DNA from: Anaerophaga thermohalophila str. Valhall | GTDB lineage: Bacteria > Bacteroidota > Bacteroidia > Bacteroidales > Marinilabiliaceae | Assembly: GCF_000250735.1 (NCBI RefSeq) | Contig: NZ_AHZV01000211.1 | Span: 1 to 64,000 of the forward strand | Length of the DNA: 64,000 nucleotides | Reading direction: 5' to 3' | Shown here: positions 22,476 to 35,393 of the stretch, one piece after another | Layout of the letters: every line of letters starts with the position of its first letter | Position numbering within the stretch: the first letter of the stretch is position 1 | Position numbers and translations under genes: made by a program | The notes under the pieces: generated by a model | What the model was told of the DNA's origin: nothing | Seen by the model: the letters and a program-made list of their open reading frames with translations, nothing else | Databases searched by the model: none

Positions 22476-23483
22476 TTATTTGAGAATTTGCTCGTAGACT
22501 TTTATGTAATCATTCACCATCTTTTCCTGGCTGAAATGTGTTTCGGCCCATTCTCTGCATTTTTTTCTGTCGAGCCGGTCCAGTTGCGGTATTTTTTCTA
22601 CAGCCTCTTCTACATTTTTTACCAGAAAACCGGTGATACCGTCGTTGATTAATTCCGGCATTGATCCCCGATTAAAAGCAATAACGGGAGTACCGCAAAA
22701 CATTGCTTCGGCAACGCTCAAACCAAAAGGTTCGTCAAAATTAACGGGATGCAGCAGGGCTTTAGCGTTGCGCAGCAAATTGTCCCGCTTTTCAGGACCG
22801 GAGCTGCCCACGAATATTATGTTGTCATCGTTTATGTAGGGAGCCACATTTCCATCAAAGTAGTCGCGATCCTGAATGATTCCCGAGATAATGAGCTTCA
22901 TTTTAGCTTTTTTTGCAATCTCTATGGCTTCACGGGTCCCTTTGTCATGATGGATTCGCCCGAAATAGAGCAAATAATCGTCCGGATGCTCATTTAAAGT
23001 GAAGAGGTTTTTGTTGATTCCGTTGTACACGGTGGCAATATACTTTAGCTCAGGACTCCTGTCGGAGTTACTTATGGATACATAATAATTGATGCTGTTG
23101 TATCGTTTGTAAACGGGAATGATTTTTGGCGATGAAAAACCATGTATCGTGGTAACAACCGGCGTATTTATCAGTCCTGTGTAGGTTAGCGGCAGAAAGT
23201 CGAAATGATTGTGAATAATGTCGAATTCCCGTGCCTTCTCCATGGCATAACTGATATGAAGACATTCCGAAACCTTGGGGTCGGAGTCTTTATCTTCTTC
23301 ATATCCCTGTTCGATTATCCCGTCCAGTTTCCCCTTTGTTTCGGAGTCGAGAGTGGCAAAAAGTGTGACATCGATACCTCTTGCCACCAGTCCCTCGGCA
23401 ATATTGGAGGCTACCTGTTCCCAGGGACCGTAGTGTCTGGGAGGCGTTCTCCATGCTACAGGTGAAAGAATTGCTACTTTCAT
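22476..23483 (-). CDS. GT4-family glycosyltransferase
   Basis: A 335-residue GT-B fold retaining glycosyltransferase. The N-terminal domain starts VAILSPVAWRTPPRHYGPWE; the C-terminal nucleotide-sugar domain has YLLYFGRIHHDKGTREAIEI and the E-x7-E motif in FDEPFGLSVAEAMFCGTPVI. It is the last gene of a minus-strand set with the GH130 gene and the GT4-toroid gene; a 163-bp gap with an R3 repeat separates it from the GH130 gene. Acceptor and donor are unknown; mannose chemistry is suggested only by the GH130 neighbour. Confidence 0.9.
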   Translation of the reverse strand: MKVAILSPVAWRTPPRHYGPWEQVASNIAEGLVARGIDVTLFATLDSETKGKLDGIIEQGYEEDKDSDPKVSECLHISYAMEKAREFDIIHNHFDFLPLTYTGLINTPVVTTIHGFSSPKIIPVYKRYNSINYYVSISNSDRSPELKYIATVYNGINKNLFTLNEHPDDYLLYFGRIHHDKGTREAIEIAKKAKMKLIISGIIQDRDYFDGNVAPYINDDNIIFVGSSGPEKRDNLLRNAKALLHPVNFDEPFGLSVAEAMFCGTPVIAFNRGSMPELINDGITGFLVKNVEEAVEKIPQLDRLDRKKCREWAETHFSQEKMVNDYIKVYEQILK

Positions 23484-23576
23484 GGTGATACCTATTTTGT
23501 TGTTTTTTTACACAGATGTCTCAGATTTTCATAGATTTCCAGGCTTTCATCAGTATAAAATTAGTCTAAGTTATTG

Positions 23577-23646
23577 GTCTGATGGAACTCGCATGATTGG
23601 GTTTATACATGTTCTCTTGTGACAAACCTTGTCATGCTCGTTTCAT
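23577..23646 (-). repeat. R3 repeat, full copy 2
   Basis: Full-length match to 4098-4168. Its inner stem is GACAA/TTGTC (23621-23625 with 23629-23633) where copy 1 has GGCAA/TTGCC. It fills the gap between the GH130 3' end and the GT4 start. Confidence 0.65.
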
Positions 23647-24573
23647 TTAAATTGCAGACCGGCTGTTGTTGAGGCATAGATTCACCAAATCTTCGGTTTT
23701 TGCAGTTCCAACACACATAACACTGTCGGAAGCTCCCCAGTAAATCTTTAACGTACCGTCGTTTTCAGGGACGGCACCACAGGTGAACACCACATTATGA
23801 ACATAACCGGTAAGTTCATAGGGTTCTTCTGGTTGCAATATCCAGTCGTCGCCCACACCGATGATCTTTGACGGATCATTCAAATCATGCAATGCAACCC
23901 CCAGACGATAAACGCTTCCGTCCATTGTCGGGTAGACCCCATGATAGATATTAAGCCATCCCTTGTCTGTCTTTATGGGTGGAGCCCCGGGGCCAATTTT
24001 CATCTCGTCCCAATGATATTGCACCGGACGCATAATAAGTTTCGAATCGCCCCAATAACGGAGGTCTGGTGAATAACTGATCCAGACAGACCACGGACTT
24101 ATTTCGCTGTGCGGCCTGTCGAGCCTGGCATACAAACCGTTGAATTTGTCCGGAAAAATGACCACATTCCGGTAATCGGCTTCGGTAATGAGTGAAAAGC
24201 GTTCCACACTTTCCCAGTCACGCGTTTTTGCCAGGCCAACACGCACACCGTGACGTGAATATGCAGAGTAGGTGATGAGGTACTCTCCGTCGATAAAAGT
24301 TATGCGGGGGTCTTCAACCCCATACTCCTCATATTCAGCAAAAATTCCCTTTTTAGCCGGTTCCATAAACGGTTGTTCTTCAGCCTTCCAGTGGTAGCCG
24401 TCAATACTTCTGGCCAGACCAAGGATGCTTCGGCCGTTCATTTTATGCGAACGGAAAAGCATAATGTACTCACCCCTGTATGTTGTGATTCCGGCATTAT
24501 GTACTGTGCTCACCGGATAAGGGATGTCTTCTTTGGTTAGTATGGGGTTATACTGATAACGTGTAACCAGCAT
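23647..24573 (-). CDS. GH130-family glycoside phosphorylase/hydrolase
   Basis: A 308-residue five-bladed propeller enzyme of normal GH130 length. Motifs include NAGITTYRGEYIMLFRSHK (26-44), VEDPRITF with the catalytic-position aspartate (EDPR 87-90), LDRPHSEISPWSVWISYSPD and GYVHNVVFTCGAVPEND. Characterised family members break beta-1,2- or beta-1,4-mannosidic bonds, by phosphorolysis or hydrolysis. No signal peptide, so it acts in the cytoplasm, which favours a phosphorylase working on an internal or imported oligosaccharide. It starts 14 bases after the GT4-toroid gene. Confidence 0.9.
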   Translation of the reverse strand: MLVTRYQYNPILTKEDIPYPVSTVHNAGITTYRGEYIMLFRSHKMNGRSILGLARSIDGYHWKAEEQPFMEPAKKGIFAEYEEYGVEDPRITFIDGEYLITYSAYSRHGVRVGLAKTRDWESVERFSLITEADYRNVVIFPDKFNGLYARLDRPHSEISPWSVWISYSPDLRYWGDSKLIMRPVQYHWDEMKIGPGAPPIKTDKGWLNIYHGVYPTMDGSVYRLGVALHDLNDPSKIIGVGDDWILQPEEPYELTGYVHNVVFTCGAVPENDGTLKIYWGASDSVMCVGTAKTEDLVNLCLNNSRSAI

Positions 24574-24587
24574 GGCATAAAATTTTT

Positions 24588-26831
24588 TTAGAGATTTTCG
24601 AAAATATGTTCTTTTTCCTGGGCGGCCAGTACAGTGAGATGCGAAATCCAGTATGCCAGTGTGCTTTCAGCGCCCTGGTTGCGATTGACACCTTGTGACT
24701 CAAGTCCGTCACAACACCCAAGGGTTTCATGATCGAAAAGAGGTAAACGAAGGGAGTTTTCTCCCAGGAACCAAAGATAACTGGTAAACATTTTTTCAAT
24801 ATAACTTTTTTCCTTGGTTATCTGGAAAATCTGATAATAGAGCAACACCATTGCCATAACATCTATGGATTGCTGGTCGAATTCAGGGACTCTTCCCCCG
24901 CGTTGATACCATCCCTGGTTTCCTACCGGTGTCAGGTGTCCCGACCTGAAAACAATGCTTTCCAGGAAACGGGTTGTATTCATAGCTATGTCAAAATACT
25001 CCTCAATTCCGGTCACTTCAAAGGCAGCAAATAGAGCCAACGGTAATATGGCATTGTCGTAAGTCATCTGGTCTTCGAACCACTGCCAGTCATCTGAAGA
25101 TATGGTGTGGTATGCAAGGGTTAGTTTTTCTACCAGTTTTTTCAGGGTTTTTACCATCCCTTCGTCGTTCTGGGAGTCTTTTAGATAATAACTTATGCCG
25201 ATTATAGTATTAGCCGCCCCCCTTATGGATTCTACATTTTCGAAATGGGAGACAGAATTGAAAAATATTTCGCGACCAATTTGCTTAAAAGCATCATTGG
25301 GGGCAAATCGTATCAGGTACCCGAGGGCCCAGATGGTTCGTCCGAAAGAATCGTCGGAACCGTATTCATCCAGAAACTGACGGCTAAAGCTCAGGAAATT
25401 TCTGAAATTGCCGTTTTCCCGCTGCATGTAGTGTATGAAGCTCAGGTATATCGGCATCAGGTATAATGCGTCTTTATCTTTATTTTGCCGCCAGGCCATC
25501 AGTGCCATGATGAGTGCACGGGCATTGTCATCCATGCAATACCCTTCTTTCAGATTAGGAATCCCGTATTTTGCATGTTGAACAATCCCGGTGTCATCGG
25601 TAAGCCTTTTTATATGCGACAAATTGTAGGAAGGCATCAGCGAAACATCGATGGCCAGTTTTTCGGGTTCAGGTTCTTTATCCCAATTGTCAAATACGTA
25701 CTCTGCCAGGTAGAGGTATTGTTTGCCGATTTTTGGCCAGCGTATCTTTTTCCCGTACTCGAACGCTTTCTCGCGCAAAGCCACCATTTTGTCATCATCG
25801 TCGAGCAGTTCTAAAAGTACACTTGATAACTCATCCGGATTTTTGAAGCCAAAAAGTCGTCCCCTGCCATTGTCTAATAGCTCCTGTGCGTGCCAGTAGG
25901 GTGTTGAAACTACTGCACAGCCTGCTCCTACGGCGTATGAAAGAGTTCCGCTGGTAATCTGCGCCTCACTCAGGTAGGGTGTGATGTAAATATCACTGGC
26001 AGTAAGGTATTCGAAAAGTTTAGCCTCGGTAACAAATTCATTGTTGAAGAAGACATTTTTTTCGAGACCAAGACTTTTAACCAATCTTTTTAAATAGTTT
26101 CTGTATTCGTCTCCCGAATGTTTAAAAACCGATGGATGTGTTGCCCCTAAAACAATATATAATAAGTTAGGATGGTTCTTTACGACCGGAGGCAATGCAT
26201 TCAAAACAGTCTCAATACCTTTGTTCCGGCTTAACAGACCAAAGGTGAGCAATACTTTCCGGTTTTCCAGTCCGTGTTTTTCTTTGGCGGCTTTCCGTGA
26301 TATTTTTTCGAATTCGGGAACTCCGTGCTCTATAAGTGTTATTTTTTCCTTTGGAATGTGGTAAATATCTTCAAGGAACTCTACTGCCCTGCGACTCATC
26401 ACTACGATGCGGGCTGCTTTTTTGCCAATTTCCTGAACGATCGAACGCTGAGTATAGGAGGGATCCCTTAGTACCGTATGAAAAGTTACAATAAGTGGTA
26501 CTTCGAGCCGATGAAGCAGCGGTAGAATATAGACGCCGTCATCACCGCCGAAAATTCCAAATTCATGTTCCAGGATGCAAACACCCGCATCGCTGTAATT
26601 AATTACTTTGGCTGCATTGATATAGTCCCTCTGATGGTTTTGCCGGATGACATGCTTTACTTCTTCCGGATATTCGTACTGACTGCCATCTTCGTTAATG
26701 GCCACCACCATTGCGGTGTCACTTATTTTTTTGTTTTCGGTATTTGCATGAATGGCTTTCACCAGGTTGTTGGTAAATGTTCCTATACCACATTGCCGCG
26801 GTGGATAAGTTCCGATAAATGCAATTTTCAT
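24588..26831 (-). CDS. GT4 glycosyltransferase fused to an alpha/alpha-toroid-like domain
   Basis: A 747-residue two-part protein. Residues 1-370 are a GT4 glycosyltransferase (IAFIGTYPPRQCGIGTFTNN; LLTFGLLSRNKGIETVLNAL; YLSEAQITSGTLSYAVGAGC). Residues 400-745 are a helical region with repeated aromatic and acidic motifs (GYCMDDNARALIMALMAW; DDWQWFEDQMTYDNAILPLA; FDQQSIDVMAMVLLYYQIF), which resembles six-hairpin glycosidase folds. A transferase joined to a possible glycan-binding or trimming domain could build and edit one product. It is first in the minus-strand GT4-toroid / GH130 / GT4 set. The fold of the second part is my inference. Confidence 0.82.
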   Translation of the reverse strand: MKIAFIGTYPPRQCGIGTFTNNLVKAIHANTENKKISDTAMVVAINEDGSQYEYPEEVKHVIRQNHQRDYINAAKVINYSDAGVCILEHEFGIFGGDDGVYILPLLHRLEVPLIVTFHTVLRDPSYTQRSIVQEIGKKAARIVVMSRRAVEFLEDIYHIPKEKITLIEHGVPEFEKISRKAAKEKHGLENRKVLLTFGLLSRNKGIETVLNALPPVVKNHPNLLYIVLGATHPSVFKHSGDEYRNYLKRLVKSLGLEKNVFFNNEFVTEAKLFEYLTASDIYITPYLSEAQITSGTLSYAVGAGCAVVSTPYWHAQELLDNGRGRLFGFKNPDELSSVLLELLDDDDKMVALREKAFEYGKKIRWPKIGKQYLYLAEYVFDNWDKEPEPEKLAIDVSLMPSYNLSHIKRLTDDTGIVQHAKYGIPNLKEGYCMDDNARALIMALMAWRQNKDKDALYLMPIYLSFIHYMQRENGNFRNFLSFSRQFLDEYGSDDSFGRTIWALGYLIRFAPNDAFKQIGREIFFNSVSHFENVESIRGAANTIIGISYYLKDSQNDEGMVKTLKKLVEKLTLAYHTISSDDWQWFEDQMTYDNAILPLALFAAFEVTGIEEYFDIAMNTTRFLESIVFRSGHLTPVGNQGWYQRGGRVPEFDQQSIDVMAMVLLYYQIFQITKEKSYIEKMFTSYLWFLGENSLRLPLFDHETLGCCDGLESQGVNRNQGAESTLAYWISHLTVLAAQEKEHIFENL

Positions 26832-27616: not shown

Positions 27617-27644
27617 TCTGATTCAATGACTTTGGCATTTTTTG

Positions 27645-27717
27645 TGACCCAGCAGGGATTCGAACCCTGGACCCCATCCTTAAAAGGGACGTGCTCTACC
27701 AGCTGAGCTACTGAGTC
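27645..27717 (-). tRNA. tRNA-Lys (anticodon TTT)
   Basis: 73 nt. Acceptor stem GACTCAG/CTGGGTC, D-arm GCTCAGCTGGTAGAGC, anticodon loop CTTTTAA with TTT, T-arm with GGTTCGAATCC, discriminator base A. CCA is not encoded. It has a promoter at 27741 and a strong terminator, so it is a single-gene unit. Confidence 0.98.
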
Positions 27718-28017
27718 ATCCGTTTCTCTCAAACGCGGTGCAAAAATAGGGGGTTCTTTTTGAACTCGCAAGGATTATTTCGGAAAATTGTCGTTAAAAA
27801 ATGTTTTATTGCTTTTAAACGCCCGGCTTTTAAATGATTAATGTACGATTTTTTTTGAGACTGAAATTTATGTTTGTAACTTTAAACTGATAGCATGATT
27901 TATGAATAAAGCAGGTTAGATTAAACAAAACTGATATCCATGCCTGGATGCACAATATCGATTCAAAGGCAACGAAACTCATTTGTTTGTTTCTTCAGTA
28001 ACAATCTGAAGGAGGCA
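27718..28017. other. Intergenic region tRNA-Lys / MEMO gene
   Basis: A 300-bp divergent region. It holds the tRNA promoter (27741-27771) and, for the plus-strand MEMO-AMMECR1 gene, a TATGTTTG at 27869-27876 and an overlapping TTTG, 19 bases, TAACTTTA arrangement (27854-27884). Either could be the -7 element. Confidence 0.5.
27741..27771 (-). promoter_or_regulatory. Promoter of tRNA-Lys
   Basis: Minus strand TTG, exactly 20 bases, TATTTTTG: a perfect Bacteroidetes housekeeping promoter, ending 24 bases before the tRNA 5' end. Confidence 0.8.
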
Positions 28018-29506
28018 ATGGTTTTAATTTTATTGGCAGCATTCACTTCATTATCATCAGCCCAAAACCGAAATGCTATGGAAGTAAAAGACAGAGTACC
28101 GGCAGTAGCAGGAATGTTTTACGAAGGAGATTCCGCTTCTCTGAAGGAGCACCTGAGTAAATTGTTCGATCAGGCCAAATTGCCCGTTTGTGATGGAGAA
28201 GTAGCAGCACTGATCGTGCCTCACGCAGGATACATTTATTCGGGCGGTGTAGCAGCTTCAGGATTTAACCAGATACCTGAAAATGCTGAGTATGAAAATT
28301 GTTTTTTTAATCGGTTCAAGTCATCGAATGGCTTTTAACGGCGCATCTGTATATACAAAAGGTGATTATTTAACGCCGCTGGGGAGAGTAGAGGTGAACA
28401 GAGAACTGGCTGAGAAACTCGTTGAAAGTTCTTCTGTTATTTCTGATTATACAGCGCCGCATATAGAAGAACATTCGCTGGAAGTCGAATTACCCTTTTT
28501 GCAATACCATCTCAAAAAACCGTTTAGGCTGATTCCTATTATTATGGGACCCCAGGATGCATCGGGCGCAAGAAAGACCGCTGAGGTACTTAAACCATAT
28601 TTTAAACCGGATAATTTATTTGTAATCAGCACCGATTTTTCACATTATCCGGAATATGAAGATGCCAAAGAGGTTGATAAAAAAACGGCAGAAGCCATTC
28701 TTAAAAATGAACCGCGTTTGTTGCTGAAAACACTTGAGGAAAACAGAAAACTTGGAATTGAGGGATTGGCTACAAGTCTTTGCGGATGGACTTCGGTTTT
28801 GACACTATTGTACCTTACCGAAGATAACAACAACCTGGATTTTTGCCATATCGAATATAAAAATTCCGGTGATGCCCGTTATGGTGATGCGTCACGCGTT
28901 GTGGGCTATAATGCTATTGCAGTTTTCAGAAAGAAGGAAACAAAAAATGCGGATAACGGTTTTTCTTTAAATGAAGATGAAAAAGAGTGGTTGCTGAAGA
29001 GGGCACGTCAGACTTTAAATTTAGTGGTCAGGGGAGAAAGTCCCGGCGAACCTGAGGGTGAAATTTCGGGGACGTTGAAAATAGGTGCCGGTGCTTTTGT
29101 TTCTCTTTATAAAGATGGTAAGTTGAGGGGCTGCATTGGTAATTTTGGTTCCTCTGCTCCTTTATGGAAGGTGGTAGACCGGATGACGGCCTCAGCTGCT
29201 CTCAACGATTCCAGGTTTCTTCCGGTTACACCTGATGAGGTGGGTGAGATAACCATTGAAATTTCAGTACTTACACCTATGAAAAAAATTGATGATATAA
29301 GTGAGATTATCCCGGGAAAGCATGGAATTGTTGTGGAAAAAGATGGCCGCAGCGGCACATTTCTTCCCCAGGTGGCCCGGAAAACCGGATGGGGACTTGA
29401 AGAACTCCTGGGTCATTGTGCACGCGATAAGGCCGGCCTTGGATGGGAGGGCTGGAAAGATGCCGATATTTATGTTTATGAAGCGCTTGTTTTCAGAGAA
29501 AAGTAG
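28018..29506 (+). CDS. MEMO-AMMECR1 fusion protein (AmmeMemoRadiSam system), interrupted by a +1 frameshift
   Basis: One protein combining a MEMO-like domain and an AMMECR1 domain, the A and B parts of the AmmeMemoRadiSam system. ATG 28018 follows a strong ribosome-binding site (AAGGAGG) and gives a signal peptide (MVLILLAAFTSLSSAQN). MEMO motifs: PAVAGMFYEGDSASLKEHL, VPHAGYIYSGGVAASGF, FLIGSSHRMAF and SLCGWTSVLTLL, covering the conserved His, His and Cys of the MEMO metal site. AMMECR1: GAFVSLYKDGKLRGCIGNFG with the LRGCIG motif. The frame shifts at T7 (28302-28308); with six T it reads ENCFLIGSSH. The second part is intact to 29506. Chemistry of the system is unknown. Confidence 0.85.
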
Positions 29507-29685
29507 GAATGAGTAATTCAGCCAGTAGTTTTTAGTCAGTAGTGAGCTGTTTTTGTCAAGATCGGGATGCAATGAATTTCTGAAATGAAGTTAACCGGGA
29601 TACAATGAGTGTTTTAATTTTTTTTGCACTGCGATTGGCAAAAAAGACTTTCGGGAGTGTCCCCGGATAAATAATTTTCAGTACA

Positions 29686-31830
29686 ATGTTGGACATTAAT
29701 AAAAAGTTTTTCTCAAAGCCGCCTTCTTTCATGTTAAAAGGGCGGCTTGCTATTTTTGTCAGTGGCTTTACCATGCTTCTGGTGCAGGTTATTCTGCTTC
29801 GCGAACTGACGTCGTTATATGCTGTAAATGAGTTGATAGTTGGTGTCTTTCTGTCGTTTTGGATGTTGTTTACCGGTGCGGGTGCGTTTGTAGCCCGGTA
29901 TTTCAGGGGATTTAGCTGGCAGTACTCAGGTTTGTTTCCTCTGCTTGCAGGTACATCGGCTTATGTGGCACTTTTGTTGCTCTATATTGCAAAAAACTGG
30001 CTTGTACCTGGCGGTATAGCTCCGGGCCTTTCTCAATGGCTGATTACCACAACCATTGTAACCTTTGTGTTTTGTTTTCCCTCGGGGATGATGTTTACCT
30101 GGTTTTCTGCGGCATTAAGCAATGTATCGCACGAGCGTCAGACAGAAGGTATCTACATCTCCGAACAATTGGGGAGTCTGATTTCCGGTGTTCTTTTTTA
30201 CCTGGCAGCAGGTTTGTGGTTGAATGCTTTCTCAGCACTTTCTTTTCTGTTGTTTGTAAATTTTTTGGTGGCGGTTTTTCTTTTTTCTCCAGTCAGAACA
30301 ACCTTTTCAAAAGTGCTCATCTTTGCAGGGATTGTGGTTTTGGTGATATTATACGCTCTTCCCCAGTATCGTTTTGCCCGTGAAAAAGTGCATGATAGCT
30401 CCGTTAGTAAGACTTATTTTTCACCTTATGGAACAATTGATGTTCTTGAAAAGGATGGTAAAAGAGATTTCTTTGGTAATGGAAGGTTCTTTTCTGATAA
30501 ATTGTTGCCAGGTGAGCGCGAAGAGCTTTTGCACCCGGCTTTATTGTTGCATCCTCGTCCCAGGCGACTTTTGCTCATTAATGTAGGCCCCGGTCTTTTG
30601 TCCGAAGCTTTAAAGTATGATTCTTTACAGATTGAATTTCTTTCACCCGACAAAGCAAGGATTGACCTGGAAAAGCAAATATTATCTGATGATAATGAAG
30701 ACTCCGAAAGGATTCATTTCATACACGATGACCCGTTAAATTATCTGAACAGTAAAAATCAGACAAGAGGTTATGATGTTATTCTGATTGGAGGAGGTGT
30801 TCCTGAAGATTTGGCTTCTACCAGATTCTATACCATCGATTTTTTCGATATGGTGAAAAGAAATATGAGCAAGGGCGGGTTGATGGCAACAGGAGGCCTC
30901 TCTTATGAACCTTACTGGTCGGATTCCATGAAGGGTATCCTGAGAATAATGAATAGTACAGTCAGCGAAGTTTTTCCGTTTATCAGGATTTGGGCAGGTG
31001 AGAAAGTCTTTTTTATTGCGTCGGATAAAGAGCTGACCACCGGATGGTGGTCGTATCACAGAGAAGCTGTTGCACAAAACAGTTTTTTGAATGAGGACTA
31101 TTTCCCGGAATCAATATTAAAAGGGCAAGTTGAAGATGTAAAGTCTGTCATTGCTGAGGATGCCCCGGTAAATACACGTATAAAGCCGGTTTTGTTTCGG
31201 ATGGCTATTATGGAAATGGGGAATTTCTGGGATGTCAGGATTGAGTGGTTTGCAGTAGTTCTGGGAATTTTGTTGATAATCGGACTAATAATTTTCAGGA
31301 GAAGTGCCAGGGGGGTTTTTTTGGCCGGCATTGTTCTTGGAGGAATGCAAGTTGTTATTTTGCTACTTTGGCAGTTGGTTATGGGCGATTTGTACCGGGC
31401 CACAGGTGTCCTGTTTTCTTTGTTTATGGCAGGGCTTGCGCTGGGCGCTGTGTTGGGCAACAGGAATGTACTCTTTTTTCGTGCCCGTTATTTTCCGGTT
31501 ATGTTGATAATGATGGCCGTTTTAAGCATAGCAGCAGTTCCGGTAATTGACAGTATGGCCAACCGGATGGTTTTTCCTGTTGTGGTTTTAATCATTTTGT
31601 TTGGAATGGCTATGTTGGGAGGAGGTATTTTTGTTGCAGGCCTCTCTCTGCATGAAGGAAGTGTTCAGAGCGGGGCGGCCATTACTTATGTTGCCGATGT
31701 TACCGGTGGTGCGTTGGGGTCTTTTATAACTGCTATATTTTTTGTACCTTATACCGGTCTCGTAAATACAGGATACCTTTTTGGAATGGCATTACTGATT
31801 GGAGGGTTATTGCTGATCAGAAATTATTAG
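29686..31830 (+). CDS. Membrane protein with central spermidine-synthase-like domain
   Basis: A 714-residue protein in three parts: about seven hydrophobic spans in residues 20-225, a soluble Rossmann domain at 235-455 of the polyamine-synthase/methyltransferase type, and about seven more spans at 510-712. The Rossmann part keeps the layout (RRLLLINVGPGLLSEALKYD; IHFIHDDPLNYL; GYDVILIGGGVPEDLASTRF; FDMVKRNMSKGGL), but the glycine-rich GGGDGG becomes NVGPGLL and the catalytic D-x-x-D after the DVI strand is replaced by GGGVPED (369-374). Aminopropyl transfer is therefore doubtful. It lies between the MEMO-AMMECR1 gene and the radical SAM gene on the same strand. Confidence 0.75.
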   Translation: MLDINKKFFSKPPSFMLKGRLAIFVSGFTMLLVQVILLRELTSLYAVNELIVGVFLSFWMLFTGAGAFVARYFRGFSWQYSGLFPLLAGTSAYVALLLLYIAKNWLVPGGIAPGLSQWLITTTIVTFVFCFPSGMMFTWFSAALSNVSHERQTEGIYISEQLGSLISGVLFYLAAGLWLNAFSALSFLLFVNFLVAVFLFSPVRTTFSKVLIFAGIVVLVILYALPQYRFAREKVHDSSVSKTYFSPYGTIDVLEKDGKRDFFGNGRFFSDKLLPGEREELLHPALLLHPRPRRLLLINVGPGLLSEALKYDSLQIEFLSPDKARIDLEKQILSDDNEDSERIHFIHDDPLNYLNSKNQTRGYDVILIGGGVPEDLASTRFYTIDFFDMVKRNMSKGGLMATGGLSYEPYWSDSMKGILRIMNSTVSEVFPFIRIWAGEKVFFIASDKELTTGWWSYHREAVAQNSFLNEDYFPESILKGQVEDVKSVIAEDAPVNTRIKPVLFRMAIMEMGNFWDVRIEWFAVVLGILLIIGLIIFRRSARGVFLAGIVLGGMQVVILLLWQLVMGDLYRATGVLFSLFMAGLALGAVLGNRNVLFFRARYFPVMLIMMAVLSIAAVPVIDSMANRMVFPVVVLIILFGMAMLGGGIFVAGLSLHEGSVQSGAAITYVADVTGGALGSFITAIFFVPYTGLVNTGYLFGMALLIGGLLLIRNY

Positions 31831-31856
31831 TGTCTGTTACGTGGTATGGAGGAGCT

Positions 31857-32984
31857 ATGCGAACAAAGAAAATTTCGAAACGTGAATTTTTAAAAATGGG
31901 AGGGATGGCATTAGCCGCCTGGCCATTTACTTTATCCGGAACCGAAAGAGGAATCGTTGGTGGCAAAGATTCATTTGAGGGTGTCCCGGCTCGATTTGCA
32001 ATTAATACACCACGGGGCATTCGTTGTCAGCTGTGTCCCAATAAGTGCACCATAAAAGAAGGGGAGCGTGGCGACTGCCGTACCCGCATCAACCGAAGCG
32101 GAGAACTCATAACACTGGCTTACGGGAATCCGTGTGCAGTTCACATCGACCCCATTGAAAAGAAACCCCTGAATCATTTCATTCCCGGAACTACCAGTTT
32201 CAGTATTGCAACAGGGGGATGTAATCTGGCGTGTCTTAATTGTCAAAACTGGCAAATTTCGCAAAAGGCACCCGATGAGGTTGAGACGGTAGATATGATG
32301 CCCGGAAGCGTTGTTTCGGCCGCCAAAGCACAGGGATGTTCGTCCATTGCTTATACTTATACCGAACCGATAGTTTTTTATGAATATACCGACGATACAG
32401 CGAAGATAGCACATGAGAAAGGGCTTCGTAATGTGATTGTTTCGGCGGGGTATATAGAGGAAAGACCTTTGCGCGAATGGTGTCAGAATATCGATGCAGC
32501 TAATATCGATTTAAAGAGTTTTAGCGATGAAATATATCAGCGACTTAATGCAGGCACACTTCAGCCTGTTCTGAATACCCTGAAGGTATTGAAAGAGGAA
32601 GGTGTATGGGTTGAAATTACGAATCTGATAGTACCGCAGTGGACCGATGATCCTGAAATGATAAAAAAGATGTGCGGGTGGCTTGTGGATAAAGGGTTTG
32701 AAGATAATCCGCTTCATTTTAGCCGGTTCACTCCTATGTATAAACTGAATCGCTTACCGTCCACCCCGCTGGAAATATTGGAAAAAGCGCATAAAATTGC
32801 AAGAGAGGCAGGTATGAAGTATGTTTATATAGGCAATGTTCCAGGACACGAAGCCCAGGATACCTATTGCCCTGCATGCAGAAAGAAAATTATTGACCGG
32901 TCGGGATTCAGAATCAGAGAAAATCACATTGTCGATGGTCGTTGTGAGTTTTGCGGAGAGCCCATTGCCGGAGTTTGGAAATAA
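31857..32984 (+). CDS. Radical SAM protein of the AmmeMemoRadiSam system
   Basis: A 375-residue radical SAM enzyme. Start at ATG 31857, preceded by GGAGGAG; a GTG at 31830 inside the upstream stop region would add nine residues. The N-terminus KISKREFLKMGGMALAAWPF resembles a Tat signal with KR in place of RR, so it may be exported folded with its clusters. The cluster motif is CNLACLNC (Cys122, 126, 129). Extra cysteine sets flank it: CQLCPNKC and GDC near residues 57-74 and CPAC...CEFC at the C-terminus. It resembles pyruvate-formate-lyase-activating-enzyme-like proteins. Its stop is 71 bp before the MaoC-like gene. Confidence 0.9.
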   Translation: MRTKKISKREFLKMGGMALAAWPFTLSGTERGIVGGKDSFEGVPARFAINTPRGIRCQLCPNKCTIKEGERGDCRTRINRSGELITLAYGNPCAVHIDPIEKKPLNHFIPGTTSFSIATGGCNLACLNCQNWQISQKAPDEVETVDMMPGSVVSAAKAQGCSSIAYTYTEPIVFYEYTDDTAKIAHEKGLRNVIVSAGYIEERPLREWCQNIDAANIDLKSFSDEIYQRLNAGTLQPVLNTLKVLKEEGVWVEITNLIVPQWTDDPEMIKKMCGWLVDKGFEDNPLHFSRFTPMYKLNRLPSTPLEILEKAHKIAREAGMKYVYIGNVPGHEAQDTYCPACRKKIIDRSGFRIRENHIVDGRCEFCGEPIAGVWK

Positions 32985-33011
32985 GAACCTTTATGGTTAT
33001 TAAAATATGTA

Positions 33012-33043
33012 TTTGAATGCGTCGGCCGGTTTTCCTATTTTTG
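33012..33043 (+). promoter_or_regulatory. Promoter of the MaoC-like gene
   Basis: TTTG, 20 bases, TATTTTTG: perfect Bacteroidetes promoter. The predicted start of transcription is about 7 bases before the ATG at 33056, so the mRNA is nearly leaderless. It also separates this gene from the radical SAM gene upstream. Confidence 0.75.
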
Positions 33044-33055
33044 CGGTGAAGTTTG

Positions 33056-34162
33056 ATGCGTATGGAAGAATATTTGAAACCAAACCGCCGGGCAGAGTAC
33101 GGGCTCGATTTGGATAAAGTTTTTGTGGGAAAGGAAATTGTAAGCCGCTATAATATTACTGTCGACGAATCGGTATTGAGTATGTGGAGCGGATTTATGC
33201 CCACATCGTCCTATCCTGAGAGTAGCCGCGAATATGCCGGGAGACTTGGGTTTCCACAAATTTTTCTTCCGTATGGTTTTTTGCTCAACCTGACTTTGAG
33301 CCTGGGGGTTGAAAATTTCGCCCATTCCAGTGTGCTGAAACTGGAATTACGGGATGCACTCTATTTGAATGCTGCTTTTCCCGGCGATACATTTTCATGT
33401 ATTATCAGAATTAAAGATATCCGGACTGCCCGCAGACCCGGACACACAGTAATAGAATCCTCTCATCTTCTGTTTAATCAAAAAGGTGAGCCGGTTTTTT
33501 CACTGGTGCGGGTGTCGCTCTTCCCGGAGATACATCCAAGAAAGACCATTCTTCCAGAGCATGACGATTCTCATCAGAACAACCTTTTCAAGGAAAAAAT
33601 ACTTGCAAGAGCACGAAGTATTAACATGGAGAATGTTGTTTTGAACTTCTCTTCCGGGGATTTGATACTTCACCCCTATGTGCGTCCAATCGGGAAAAGT
33701 GAAAACCTTTTCTGGTCAACCTATCTTAAGAACACTCATCCTACACACTATAATTATCAACGCTACCAGCCCGGCGAAATAATCGTATCCGGGGGGATCG
33801 TCGTGGCTATGGTTACGGGGATTGCTGCCCGTGAATTTCGGCAGATACTGATGCAACAAATACATAATGCTTTCCATGTACACCCCGTTTATGCCGAAGA
33901 CAGGGTTGGGGCTTTTAGTTATGTTTACGAAGTGAGGCAATTGATGCCGGGATTTGAAGAAGTGTTTATCCGGACTTTTGGCATACGTAATCTGGATACT
34001 GAACCGGAACTTTCGGATGTGGCTTTCCCAAAATCTTTGTTCGATGCAAAGGTGGAAAGACCTTCCGAAGTAAGAGAGATTATAAATGAAAAATGTCCGT
34101 CACTGCGTGATAAAGTAGGGTGTATGATCAACTGGAGTGTTCTTCGTAAAGTGGACGGCTGA
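33056..34162 (+). CDS. MaoC-like double-hotdog protein
   Basis: A 368-residue soluble protein. Its two halves each look like a hotdog domain: residues 25-165 (YPESSREYAGRLGFPQIFLP, a hydratase-like substrate loop) and 205-340 (LFWSTYLKNTHPTHYNYQRY, GGIVVAMVTGIAAREF). Two-hotdog MaoC proteins include mesaconyl-CoA hydratase and other enoyl-CoA hydratases. The likely reaction is reversible hydration of a branched or dicarboxylic acyl-CoA, but the catalytic Asp/His pair is not certain by eye. It follows the AmmeMemoRadiSam genes but has its own promoter. Confidence 0.6.
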   Translation: MRMEEYLKPNRRAEYGLDLDKVFVGKEIVSRYNITVDESVLSMWSGFMPTSSYPESSREYAGRLGFPQIFLPYGFLLNLTLSLGVENFAHSSVLKLELRDALYLNAAFPGDTFSCIIRIKDIRTARRPGHTVIESSHLLFNQKGEPVFSLVRVSLFPEIHPRKTILPEHDDSHQNNLFKEKILARARSINMENVVLNFSSGDLILHPYVRPIGKSENLFWSTYLKNTHPTHYNYQRYQPGEIIVSGGIVVAMVTGIAAREFRQILMQQIHNAFHVHPVYAEDRVGAFSYVYEVRQLMPGFEEVFIRTFGIRNLDTEPELSDVAFPKSLFDAKVERPSEVREIINEKCPSLRDKVGCMINWSVLRKVDG

Positions 34163-34565: not shown

Positions 34566-35393
34566 ATGAAAAAGTTTTACACCACCCTTTTAGCAATTGT
34601 GTTTTCCGCATTAATGATAAATATTAACGGGCAACACCAGGAGAATGAATCTACCGGAGTCTCTACTGCCGGGAGTTCATTGAAGTCTACCACAGTCTAT
34701 GATTTAATTCGTCTGAAAATTGAGAATCCTTATGTTTATGATGCTACTGTAATTTATTATCATGAAAGTTTTTCAGATGGTCGTGGGCCCGAAGATTCTG
34801 AAAAAATGTTCAACTCGTCTGAGAATATACCTGAGATATTTACACGAATCGGAAATACGGCAATGGCCATCAATGGCTTTTCCGAACTTGACGGGCAAAG
34901 CTATGTCTCCGTACCTGTCAGTGTCAGGAACAGGGTTTGGGACGACTGCGAAATTTCTGCCGATCTATCCGATTTCAGGGAAGACTATGATGTTGTACTT
35001 GAAGATAAAATGAAGGGCAGATATACGAATCTGAGAACTTCAACATATACATATACTCCTTTGGTATTAGGAATTGAGGACGAGCGGTTTGTTTTACATT
35101 TGTCAAAAAGCTCACGCGTTCCTACCGCTATGTTTGATGGATTAGAAGACACTGAAGAGAAGATACATTTTTATAGCGATTATGAAACGTTGAAAGTGAG
35201 TATTGAAAATGAAGTGTTAGCCGGTCCTGGCCGGCAAGGCAGAATTGACGTTTATTCCCTTAACGGCCGGAAACTGACCAGTCGTATTGCCAATGAGGGA
35301 GTAAACCAAATTGAATTAGCAGGCGGCCAAATATACATCGTAAGTGTTGCCGTAGGTAACCAGATAACTACGAAGAAGGTGGCTGTTCGCTAA
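34566..35393 (+). CDS. Secreted protein with type IX secretion sorting domain
   Basis: A 275-residue protein with a signal peptide (1-23, ending NINGQ). The C-terminal 70 residues have the features of a type A T9SS sorting domain: IDVYSLNGRKLTSRIANEG, then IELAGGQIYIVSVAVGNQIT and a closing TTKKVAVR. The central part (30-200) is not recognised; it contains YYHESFSDGRGPEDSEKMF and alternating beta-like stretches. The protein should leave the cell through the Por/T9SS machinery and be released or anchored at the surface. Its upstream repeat array suggests dedicated control. Confidence 0.85.
   Translation: MKKFYTTLLAIVFSALMININGQHQENESTGVSTAGSSLKSTTVYDLIRLKIENPYVYDATVIYYHESFSDGRGPEDSEKMFNSSENIPEIFTRIGNTAMAINGFSELDGQSYVSVPVSVRNRVWDDCEISADLSDFREDYDVVLEDKMKGRYTNLRTSTYTYTPLVLGIEDERFVLHLSKSSRVPTAMFDGLEDTEEKIHFYSDYETLKVSIENEVLAGPGRQGRIDVYSLNGRKLTSRIANEGVNQIELAGGQIYIVSVAVGNQITTKKVAVR

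Follow-up and report, generated by a model that had tools for sequence, protein, structure and literature searches.

A predicted extracytoplasmic AmmeMemoRadiSam variant with a transporter-like membrane partner

The AmmeMemoRadiSam locus of the window

The window analysed here, a stretch of 64,000 nucleotides from Anaerophaga thermohalophila str. Valhall, is part of one contig (NZ_AHZV01000211.1) of a genome of 4.5 Mb in 371 contigs. It carries a locus with a MEMO-AMMECR1 gene, a gene for a large membrane protein (hereafter MEM) and a gene for a radical S-adenosylmethionine (SAM) enzyme (hereafter rSAM). The best explanation of the data, to which we give a probability of roughly 0.6, is that the locus encodes an extracytoplasmic variant of the AmmeMemoRadiSam system with a transporter-like partner, MEM, whose most likely job would be to bring SAM out or adenosyl products back. 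The extracytoplasmic location, as predicted from sequence, is very probable; that MEM carries SAM or an adenosyl product is a tentative proposal. A preliminary description had located the chemistry of the locus either at the cytoplasmic membrane or outside it, and the location predicted from linkage, co-occurrence and export signals supports this. The genes of the system are arranged as follows.

28018..28338, + strand: N-terminal part of MEMO with a signal-peptide-like start (ATG at 28018; reading frame open from 27940), frame A, continuing past the shift until it meets a stop; PF01875 positions 2-64, TIGR04336
28283..29506, + strand: C-terminal part of MEMO fused to AMMECR1, frame B; PF01875 positions 63-267, PF01871, TIGR04335
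28294..28315, + strand: one-base length difference splitting MEMO in the assembly, from comparison with the same-genus locus L287
29686..31830, + strand: MEM, 14-span protein with a fold of the major facilitator superfamily (MFS) and a spermidine-synthase-like domain (residues 238-512, approximately) inserted between helices 7 and 8; PF01564 (35 bits), AlphaFold2 model, PDB matches (VMAT2, aminopropyltransferases), charge rule
31830..32984, + strand: rSAM, TIGR04337 radical SAM enzyme with a Tat-like N-terminus (GTG at 31830; ATG at 31857 also possible); 376 bits, CxxxCxxC at residues 131-138, KREFLK

Profile searches placed the MEMO, AMMECR1 and radical SAM families where the preliminary description had put them, all three above the curated cut-offs: TIGR04336 (MEMO) matched two pieces with 64.9 and 166.8 bits (cut-off 26), TIGR04335 (AMMECR1) scored 142.9 bits (cut-off 99) and TIGR04337 scored 376 bits (cut-off 220).

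Linkage and co-occurrence of MEM and rSAM

MEM was nearly confined to genomes that also encode rSAM. TIGR04337 was matched in 140 of the 295 genomes of the order sample (E ≤1e-40) and MEM in 71 (E ≤1e-10); MEM occurred in 69 of the 140 rSAM-positive genomes vs 2 of the 155 rSAM-negative ones (Fisher p 4e-25). Three of the 71 MEM genomes (G376, G439, G507) were counted on short, weak matches, perhaps to ordinary spermidine synthases, and in the window's family, with a MEM match in 24 of 71 genomes, 13 of the 24 were such weak matches. At least 50 of the 73 MEM matches lay within 10 kb of a listed rSAM, always on the same strand (50/50) and with MEM upstream in 47 of 50; this count and the corresponding one below are lower bounds. 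The same association was observed in a second phylum, that of the Terriglobia locus L169, where a MEM threshold of E ≤1e-60 was applied. There MEM was present in 65 of 184 rSAM-positive vs 1 of 113 rSAM-negative genomes (p 6e-15; this p-value and the one above overstate independence, because genomes of one order or phylum share ancestry), and at least 40 of the 68 listed MEMs were found within 10 kb of rSAM.

A contig scan with 13 aligned MEMs yielded 268 relatives, and 80 loci were examined, 13 of which repeat a MEM of the order sample. The records are titled Bacteroidota, Ignavibacteria, Terriglobia and Nano-/Woesearchaeota, among others. rSAM was present in 66 of these loci, MEMO-AMMECR1 in 68 and both in 62; seven of the 14 loci lacking rSAM end within 420 bases after MEM. 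A further sample was drawn from strong matches in other classes, 67 of 112 genomes with a TIGR04337 match, and the six MEMs with E <1e-100 among these 67 all adjoin rSAM as judged by eye. When the genes lying within 4 kb were clustered for 115 distinct MEM loci, no other gene family was found in more than 11 of them. In a tree of 131 rSAMs the presence of MEM required four changes (at least three by starred branches), while shuffled labels required 36.3 on average and none of 500 shuffles was as low. MEM presence is thus strongly clustered on the rSAM tree, with few gains or losses. The preliminary description had called for a neighbourhood survey of the membrane gene, with rare linkage counting against it; rare linkage was not seen, and MEM often adjoins rSAM.

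Predicted export signals of rSAM

The window's rSAM starts with MRTKKISKREFLKMGG, a sequence resembling a twin-arginine translocation (Tat) signal with KR in place of RR (motif KREFLK). The CxxxCxxC motif is intact, and further cysteines are present, which are probably family features because the TIGR04337 match spans them. The Tat-like start and the extra cysteines had both been noticed beforehand and were confirmed with these two qualifications.

The N-terminal extension preceding the first cysteine set had a median length of 67 residues where MEM was present in the locus vs 19 where it was not. A [KR]R-x-F-[LI]-K motif was carried by 97 of the 104 rSAMs that were usable from MEM loci vs 6 of 44 in loci without MEM, and 86 of the 97 read KR and 11 RR. 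When a strict motif within the first 45 residues was considered, it occurred in 91 of 105 MEM-locus rSAMs, in 4 of 44 without MEM and in 4 of 783 other genes from these loci. The motif was missing from all of 60 further rSAMs whose loci, about 4 kb long, contain no MEM; 30 of these were taken from the phylum sample, including one truncated after two residues, and the other 30 were the best scorers of the second phylum. RR itself was observed in 28 of 29 MEM-linked rSAMs of the second phylum (29 of 40 loci had a readable rSAM), in 20 of 20 of a smaller set inspected by eye, and in the rSAMs of four loci titled DPANN. The latter (L204, L208, L224, L229) are loci from archaeal, perhaps mis-binned, metagenome-assembled genomes in which the RR-bearing rSAM stands with MEM.

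The seven MEM-locus rSAMs without the motif were inspected individually. L102 and L107 are cytosolic-type tandem copies, both loci being MEM loci that also hold a cytosolic-type rSAM in tandem; L141 and L149 have a plain membrane anchor instead of the Tat-like signal and lie on a separate branch of the tree; L169 and L171 have RR outside the pattern, and L195 reads TREFLK. Two of the six motif-bearing rSAMs in loci without MEM (L152, L260) look like the result of an over-long start choice. Tat-like rSAMs were also seen at L144, L240, L247 and L239 in genomes without a detected MEM, those of L239 and L247 adjoining a signal-bearing MEMO-AMMECR1. At L140 (9325-13142) three tandem radical SAM paralogues with RR motifs were observed next to a single MEM. 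A second TIGR04337 protein of the window's genome, G000:C166:789-1769 on contig C166 (L006 711-1781), is of the cytosolic type and lacks the extension, and no MEMO or AMMECR1 gene accompanies it within the 15 kb examined.

TatC was detected in 49 of 52 genomes, i.e. the window's and 48 of 51 others, including every one of the 43 good-quality genomes, and in 8 of the 9 genomes that carry the cross-phylum loci. A cytoplasmic location of all parts, named in the preliminary description as a finding that would speak against it, was not predicted: export signals recur across phyla in the presence of MEM and are rare in its absence.

The MEMO-AMMECR1 protein

MEMO-AMMECR1 is spread over two frames in the window (27940-28338 and 28283-29506). 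In a locus of the same genus, L287, whose MEM is 92% identical, the gene is intact (521 amino acids) and has one base fewer near 28299, so that the split in the window is probably a recent mutation or an assembly error. A programmed or slippage frameshift at a T run was also considered; L287 has the same run with one base fewer before it, and mutation or assembly error is the simpler explanation. A MEMO-AMMECR1 fusion with a signal peptide had been proposed for the window. Both domains and a signal-peptide-like stretch following the ATG at 28018 (by reading) were found, but the single open frame was not, the assembly showing two. The window's own MEMO was the only one found in its genome.

A hydrophobic N-terminal extension was present on 81 of 82 usable MEMO-AMMECR1 proteins in loci with MEM vs 3 of 10 without, and 41 of the 81 also showed a lipobox-like cysteine. 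In total 97 MEM-linked proteins were available; 15 were unusable, six being cut at contig ends, eight missed by the anchor pattern and one being the window's frameshifted piece. The starts of the eight missed proteins look hydrophobic. L323-L325 had first been taken for loci with a signal-less MEMO; longer stretches show hydrophobic starts, and the exception was dropped.

PMC11081632 gives H49, H81 and C244 as the iron ligands of MEMO1. Equivalents of the metal histidines H49 and H81 were conserved in 88 and 89, respectively, of 89 MEM-linked MEMO-AMMECR1 proteins, and an Asp one place before the C244 position was read from the alignment in 88 of 89. Of the MEM-locus rSAMs, 101 of 104 keep the CxxxCxxC motif, as do 28 of 29 in the second phylum. 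As the MEMO metal histidines and the rSAM motif are mostly kept, the putatively exported forms look able to act.

Fold, topology and residues of MEM

MEM of the window comprises 714 residues and matches PF01564 with 35 bits. An AlphaFold2 model based on a 69-sequence alignment (pLDDT 88.6, pTM 0.90) showed seven membrane helices, a mixed domain and seven further membrane helices, which bears out the earlier reading of a 14-span protein with a central spermidine-synthase-like domain. Structure comparison of the membrane part gave VMAT2 (Z 28.7 over 349 residues, rmsd (root mean square deviation) 3.6) and PepTSt (Z 23.9), and the model has the two six-helix halves of an MFS fold plus two extra helices (AlphaFold2, VIA-align). 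The soluble domain resembled the Thermus thermophilus aminopropyltransferase 1UIR/3ANX (Z 26.9 over 269-275 residues; Foldseek E 1.4e-10), and MEM matched spermidine synthases in a PDB profile search (E 3e-26).

The short loops of MEM contained on average 21.8 K+R on the even side vs 3.6 on the odd side, with the same direction in 112 of 112 proteins, the window's included. Because seven helices precede the domain and the loops show this bias, the spermidine-synthase-like domain is predicted by the charge rule to lie outside the cytoplasm in all 112.

Residues were read against the T. thermophilus aminopropyltransferase in 119 relatives outside the window's clade of seven sequences; E124, D155, D104, D173 and D176 below follow what we take to be the numbering and roles in human spermidine synthase. 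The adenosyl-ligand positions were largely conserved, E124 being acidic in 117 of 119 and D155 being Asp in 114 of 119. The D173 position was Asp in only 14 (Asn in 79) and the D176 position in 31, and the D104 position was hydrophobic or aromatic in 112. Since the adenosyl carboxylates are kept and the aminopropyl-transfer residues lost, the domain of the MEM family looks like an adenosyl-binding one that does not transfer aminopropyl groups. The window's branch appears to have gone further: the seven MEMs of its clade have Ser at the E124 position, a broken glycine motif and none of D104, D173 and D176. The loss of the usual catalytic aspartates from the window's MEM, already noticed in the preliminary description, is seen as G and V at their positions.

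Possible redox motifs

An extra N-terminal module of three helices was found on 40 of 112 MEMs (L155, L156, L159 and others), the window's MEM being among the 72 without it. Four His of the module were conserved in 35, 39, 40 and 38 of the 40. Among 26 modules compared at E ≤1, 12 matched DUF4405 (best 4.7e-6), five matched ferric-reductase models and two matched cytochrome b561 models, mostly weakly, and unrelated membrane models were matched as well, Oxidored_q2 (2.9e-5) among them. The module thus bears a faint likeness to membrane families that bind haem b. Foldseek gave no match with E <0.001 for the His-rich module, and the best Z was 7.4; the entry 6g94_B (Z 6.2), from a cytochrome b complex, ranked level with unrelated ones and was not used.

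A CxxCH motif was found in 13 of 29 MEM-linked rSAMs of the second phylum vs 0 of 148 in the first set. It lies downstream of the Tat-like signal and ahead of the first cysteine set, with further His after it. The loci concerned are given in the following line.

L365-L372, L374, L375, L395, L397, L398: loci with a CxxCH-bearing rSAM, second phylum

Proposed mechanism

In the mechanism that we propose, MEMO-AMMECR1 would be exported via Sec and then be secreted or lipid-anchored, and rSAM would be exported via Tat, probably already folded with its iron-sulfur clusters. MEM, an MFS-type protein, would be their usual partner, with its spermidine-synthase-like domain facing outward, and the reaction would take place at the outer face of the cytoplasmic membrane. 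Most likely MEM would bring SAM out to rSAM or take 5'-deoxyadenosine or methionine back, its adenosyl-binding domain serving as the outward binding part. In those lineages with possible haem motifs, electrons might arrive through haem. A SAM-derived or lipid substrate for the Rossmann protein, as suggested in the preliminary description, is a possibility. Taken all together, with a Tat-exported rSAM and an exported MEMO-AMMECR1 acting outside, SAM fed by MEM through the adenosyl-binding domain of a retired transferase and electrons arriving via haem in the transporter or the enzyme, this detailed scheme is rather unlikely to be right in every part.

Radical SAM enzymes depend on SAM, on an iron-sulfur cluster and on electrons of low potential, and they are usually regarded as cytoplasmic. 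If the proposal is true, the export signals on rSAM and its partner widen the range of places in which radical SAM chemistry can happen, and a supply of SAM outside the cytoplasm is implied. Its reach would extend over records assigned, by title or placement, to Bacteroidota, Ignavibacteriota, Acidobacteriota and perhaps DPANN archaea. MEMO and AMMECR1 both have human relatives, and the question of what they do would become more testable with an exported form separate from the cytoplasm, membrane-side substrates and a transporter-like partner.

Points against the proposal and rival explanations

Several observations weigh against an extracytoplasmic system in which MEM handles SAM. On the side of linkage, 23 of the 73 MEM matches of the order sample had no listed rSAM within 10 kb, most of them being on other contigs, and rSAM was absent from 7 of the 80 scanned MEM loci despite 1.9 to 7 kb of sequence after MEM. 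Four genomes (G365, G468, G526, G560) encode a Tat-like rSAM, and the profile search detected no MEM in them, with rSAM adjoining a signal-bearing MEMO-AMMECR1 in G526 and G560; since Tat-like rSAMs without MEM occur in at least four genomes, MEM is not indispensable. No MEMO-AMMECR1 was found within the retrieved stretch in 5 of 20 second-phylum loci, and the window's own MEMO is frameshifted. The Tat-like motif of the first set is mostly KR (86/97) and not RR. The partial loss of the adenosyl site in the window's clade speaks against SAM binding there. Six of the CxxCH-bearing rSAMs were scanned with Pfam, which gave no cytochrome match and some weak zinc-domain scores; for this reason binding of c-type haem by the insert is a possibility, zinc being possible too. 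The provision of SAM and low-potential electrons outside the cytoplasm is a real difficulty, and we know of no experiment showing a radical SAM reaction outside the cytoplasm.

The nearest rival keeps the two enzymes exported and lets MEM move what the system acts on or makes (a lipid, isoprenoid, peptide or aromatic compound), the domain being only a binding or docking module. It comes close behind carriage of SAM or adenosyl products, and we hold it somewhat unlikely. The MFS fold, the loss of the transferase residues, the partly lost adenosyl site of the window's clade and the Tat-like rSAMs without MEM all fit it, and Burroughs et al. 2019 reportedly linked Memo contexts to isoprenoid and base modification. 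A docking module, however, need not keep the adenosyl carboxylates, which outside the window's clade are conserved in 117 and 114 of 119 relatives. Those same carboxylates, together with the clear kinship to spermidine synthases (E 3e-26), would suit a MEM acting as an outer-face transferase that uses SAM, decarboxylated SAM or another adenosyl donor, its product then being changed by the other two proteins. Given the roles that we presume for them, the scarcity of Asp at D173 (14/119) and D176 (31/119), the hydrophobic or aromatic residues at D104 (112/119) and the absence of all three aspartates from the window's clade make this improbable.

Two further explanations concern electrons and location. 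That MEM is mainly an electron path to an iron-sulfur enzyme outside is suggested by the three-helix module with its four conserved His on 40 of 112 MEMs, by the weak DUF4405, ferric-reductase and cytochrome b561 matches of the modules and by CxxCH in 13 of 29 second-phylum rSAMs. The module is missing from 72 of 112 MEMs, including the window's, matches unrelated membrane models too (Oxidored_q2, 2.9e-5) and in structure comparison reached a best Z of 7.4 with no Foldseek match at E <0.001, and the MFS fold is not an electron carrier; of the explanations considered here we find this one the hardest to credit. Finally, the N-terminal stretches might not export at all, the KR signal being unused and the system standing at the inner membrane face. 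KR instead of RR in 86 of 97 rSAMs and the generally cytoplasmic nature of radical SAM enzymes would agree with this, but RR is found in 28 of 29 second-phylum relatives and in the four DPANN-titled loci, MEMO-AMMECR1 starts like a secreted protein or a lipoprotein, the charge rule points the MEM domain outward and Tat-like signals are rare where MEM is not nearby. We give little weight to an inner-face system and prefer the extracytoplasmic variant in which MEM serves rSAM with SAM or removes its adenosyl products.

Relation to known systems

None of the three enzyme families is new, nor is the fused MFS/spermidine synthase family. The system shares with AmmeMemoRadiSam (TIGR04335, TIGR04336, TIGR04337) all three families above their cut-offs, and the metal ligands and CxxxCxxC are kept in most of its relatives; the MEMO-AMMECR1 fusion is found in cytosolic-type loci of the order too (L142, L143, L145, L147). 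It differs in the signal-like start of MEMO-AMMECR1, the Tat-like extension of rSAM and the added MEM, the first two of which are mostly missing where MEM is absent. All of 13 central MEM relatives matched the fused MFS/spermidine synthase family (NF037959 MFS_SpdSyn; see also PRK03612) at E 0.001, L106 with 49.5 bits (cut-off 40), whereas the window's MEM was not matched even at E 0.1 and, with 714 residues, is longer than the model (480 positions). Its soluble domain has the same fold as SpeE (T. thermophilus 1UIR/3ANX), but the aminopropyl-transfer residues are replaced and the domain is set in a membrane protein. The membrane part has the fold of proton-dependent oligopeptide transporter (POT) and VMAT-type MFS proteins, from which it differs by the low identity (12%) and by the whole domain inserted between helices 7 and 8. 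The MEMO domain of L155 matched human MEMO1 (PDB 7KQ8, E 2.6e-26); MEM-linked MEMO differs from it in bearing a signal, in its fusion to AMMECR1 and in the Asp one place before C244.

The literature search, which did not cover Burroughs et al. 2019, yielded no report of an exported AmmeMemoRadiSam system or of its membrane partner; novelty is not certain, because that paper may have noted the membrane gene. PMC7159879 mentions 'recently-described Memo-Ammecr1 systems' that include a related radical SAM domain and cites Burroughs et al. 2019. A radical SAM domain is named in the stationary-phase secreted-protein table of a study on the extracellular proteome of Rhizobium etli (PMC2964644), as a candidate for an exported protein.

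Neighbouring genes

The gene downstream of rSAM had been described as MaoC-like and listed with the locus.

33053..34162, + strand: weakly MaoC/FAS1-dehydratase-like gene; PF13452 and NF038241 below cut-offs; not counted in the system

The MaoC reading proved weak, with 16.3 bits for PF13452 (cut-off 22) and 21.9 bits for the RipB/Ich model NF038241 (cut-off 340). As a fourth component of the system the gene was rejected, since it was the best query for no gene in 59 loci; it was not searched for in the 80 MEM loci of the contig scan. DNA comparison showed that it adjoins the system in six of eight relatives of the window's family (L287-L292 of L287-L294). It is a local neighbour, seen only in the window's own clade.

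On the other side of the locus, a tRNA-Lys (ttt) lies just upstream of MEMO-AMMECR1 (27644-27717, - strand), preceded by two GT4-type glycosyltransferase genes flanking a GH130 mannoside-phosphorylase-like gene (22476-26831, - strand). Further downstream, 34566-35393 encodes a protein with a signal-peptide-like start and a tail resembling those of the type IX secretion system (T9SS type A, 21.9 bits, cut-off 23).

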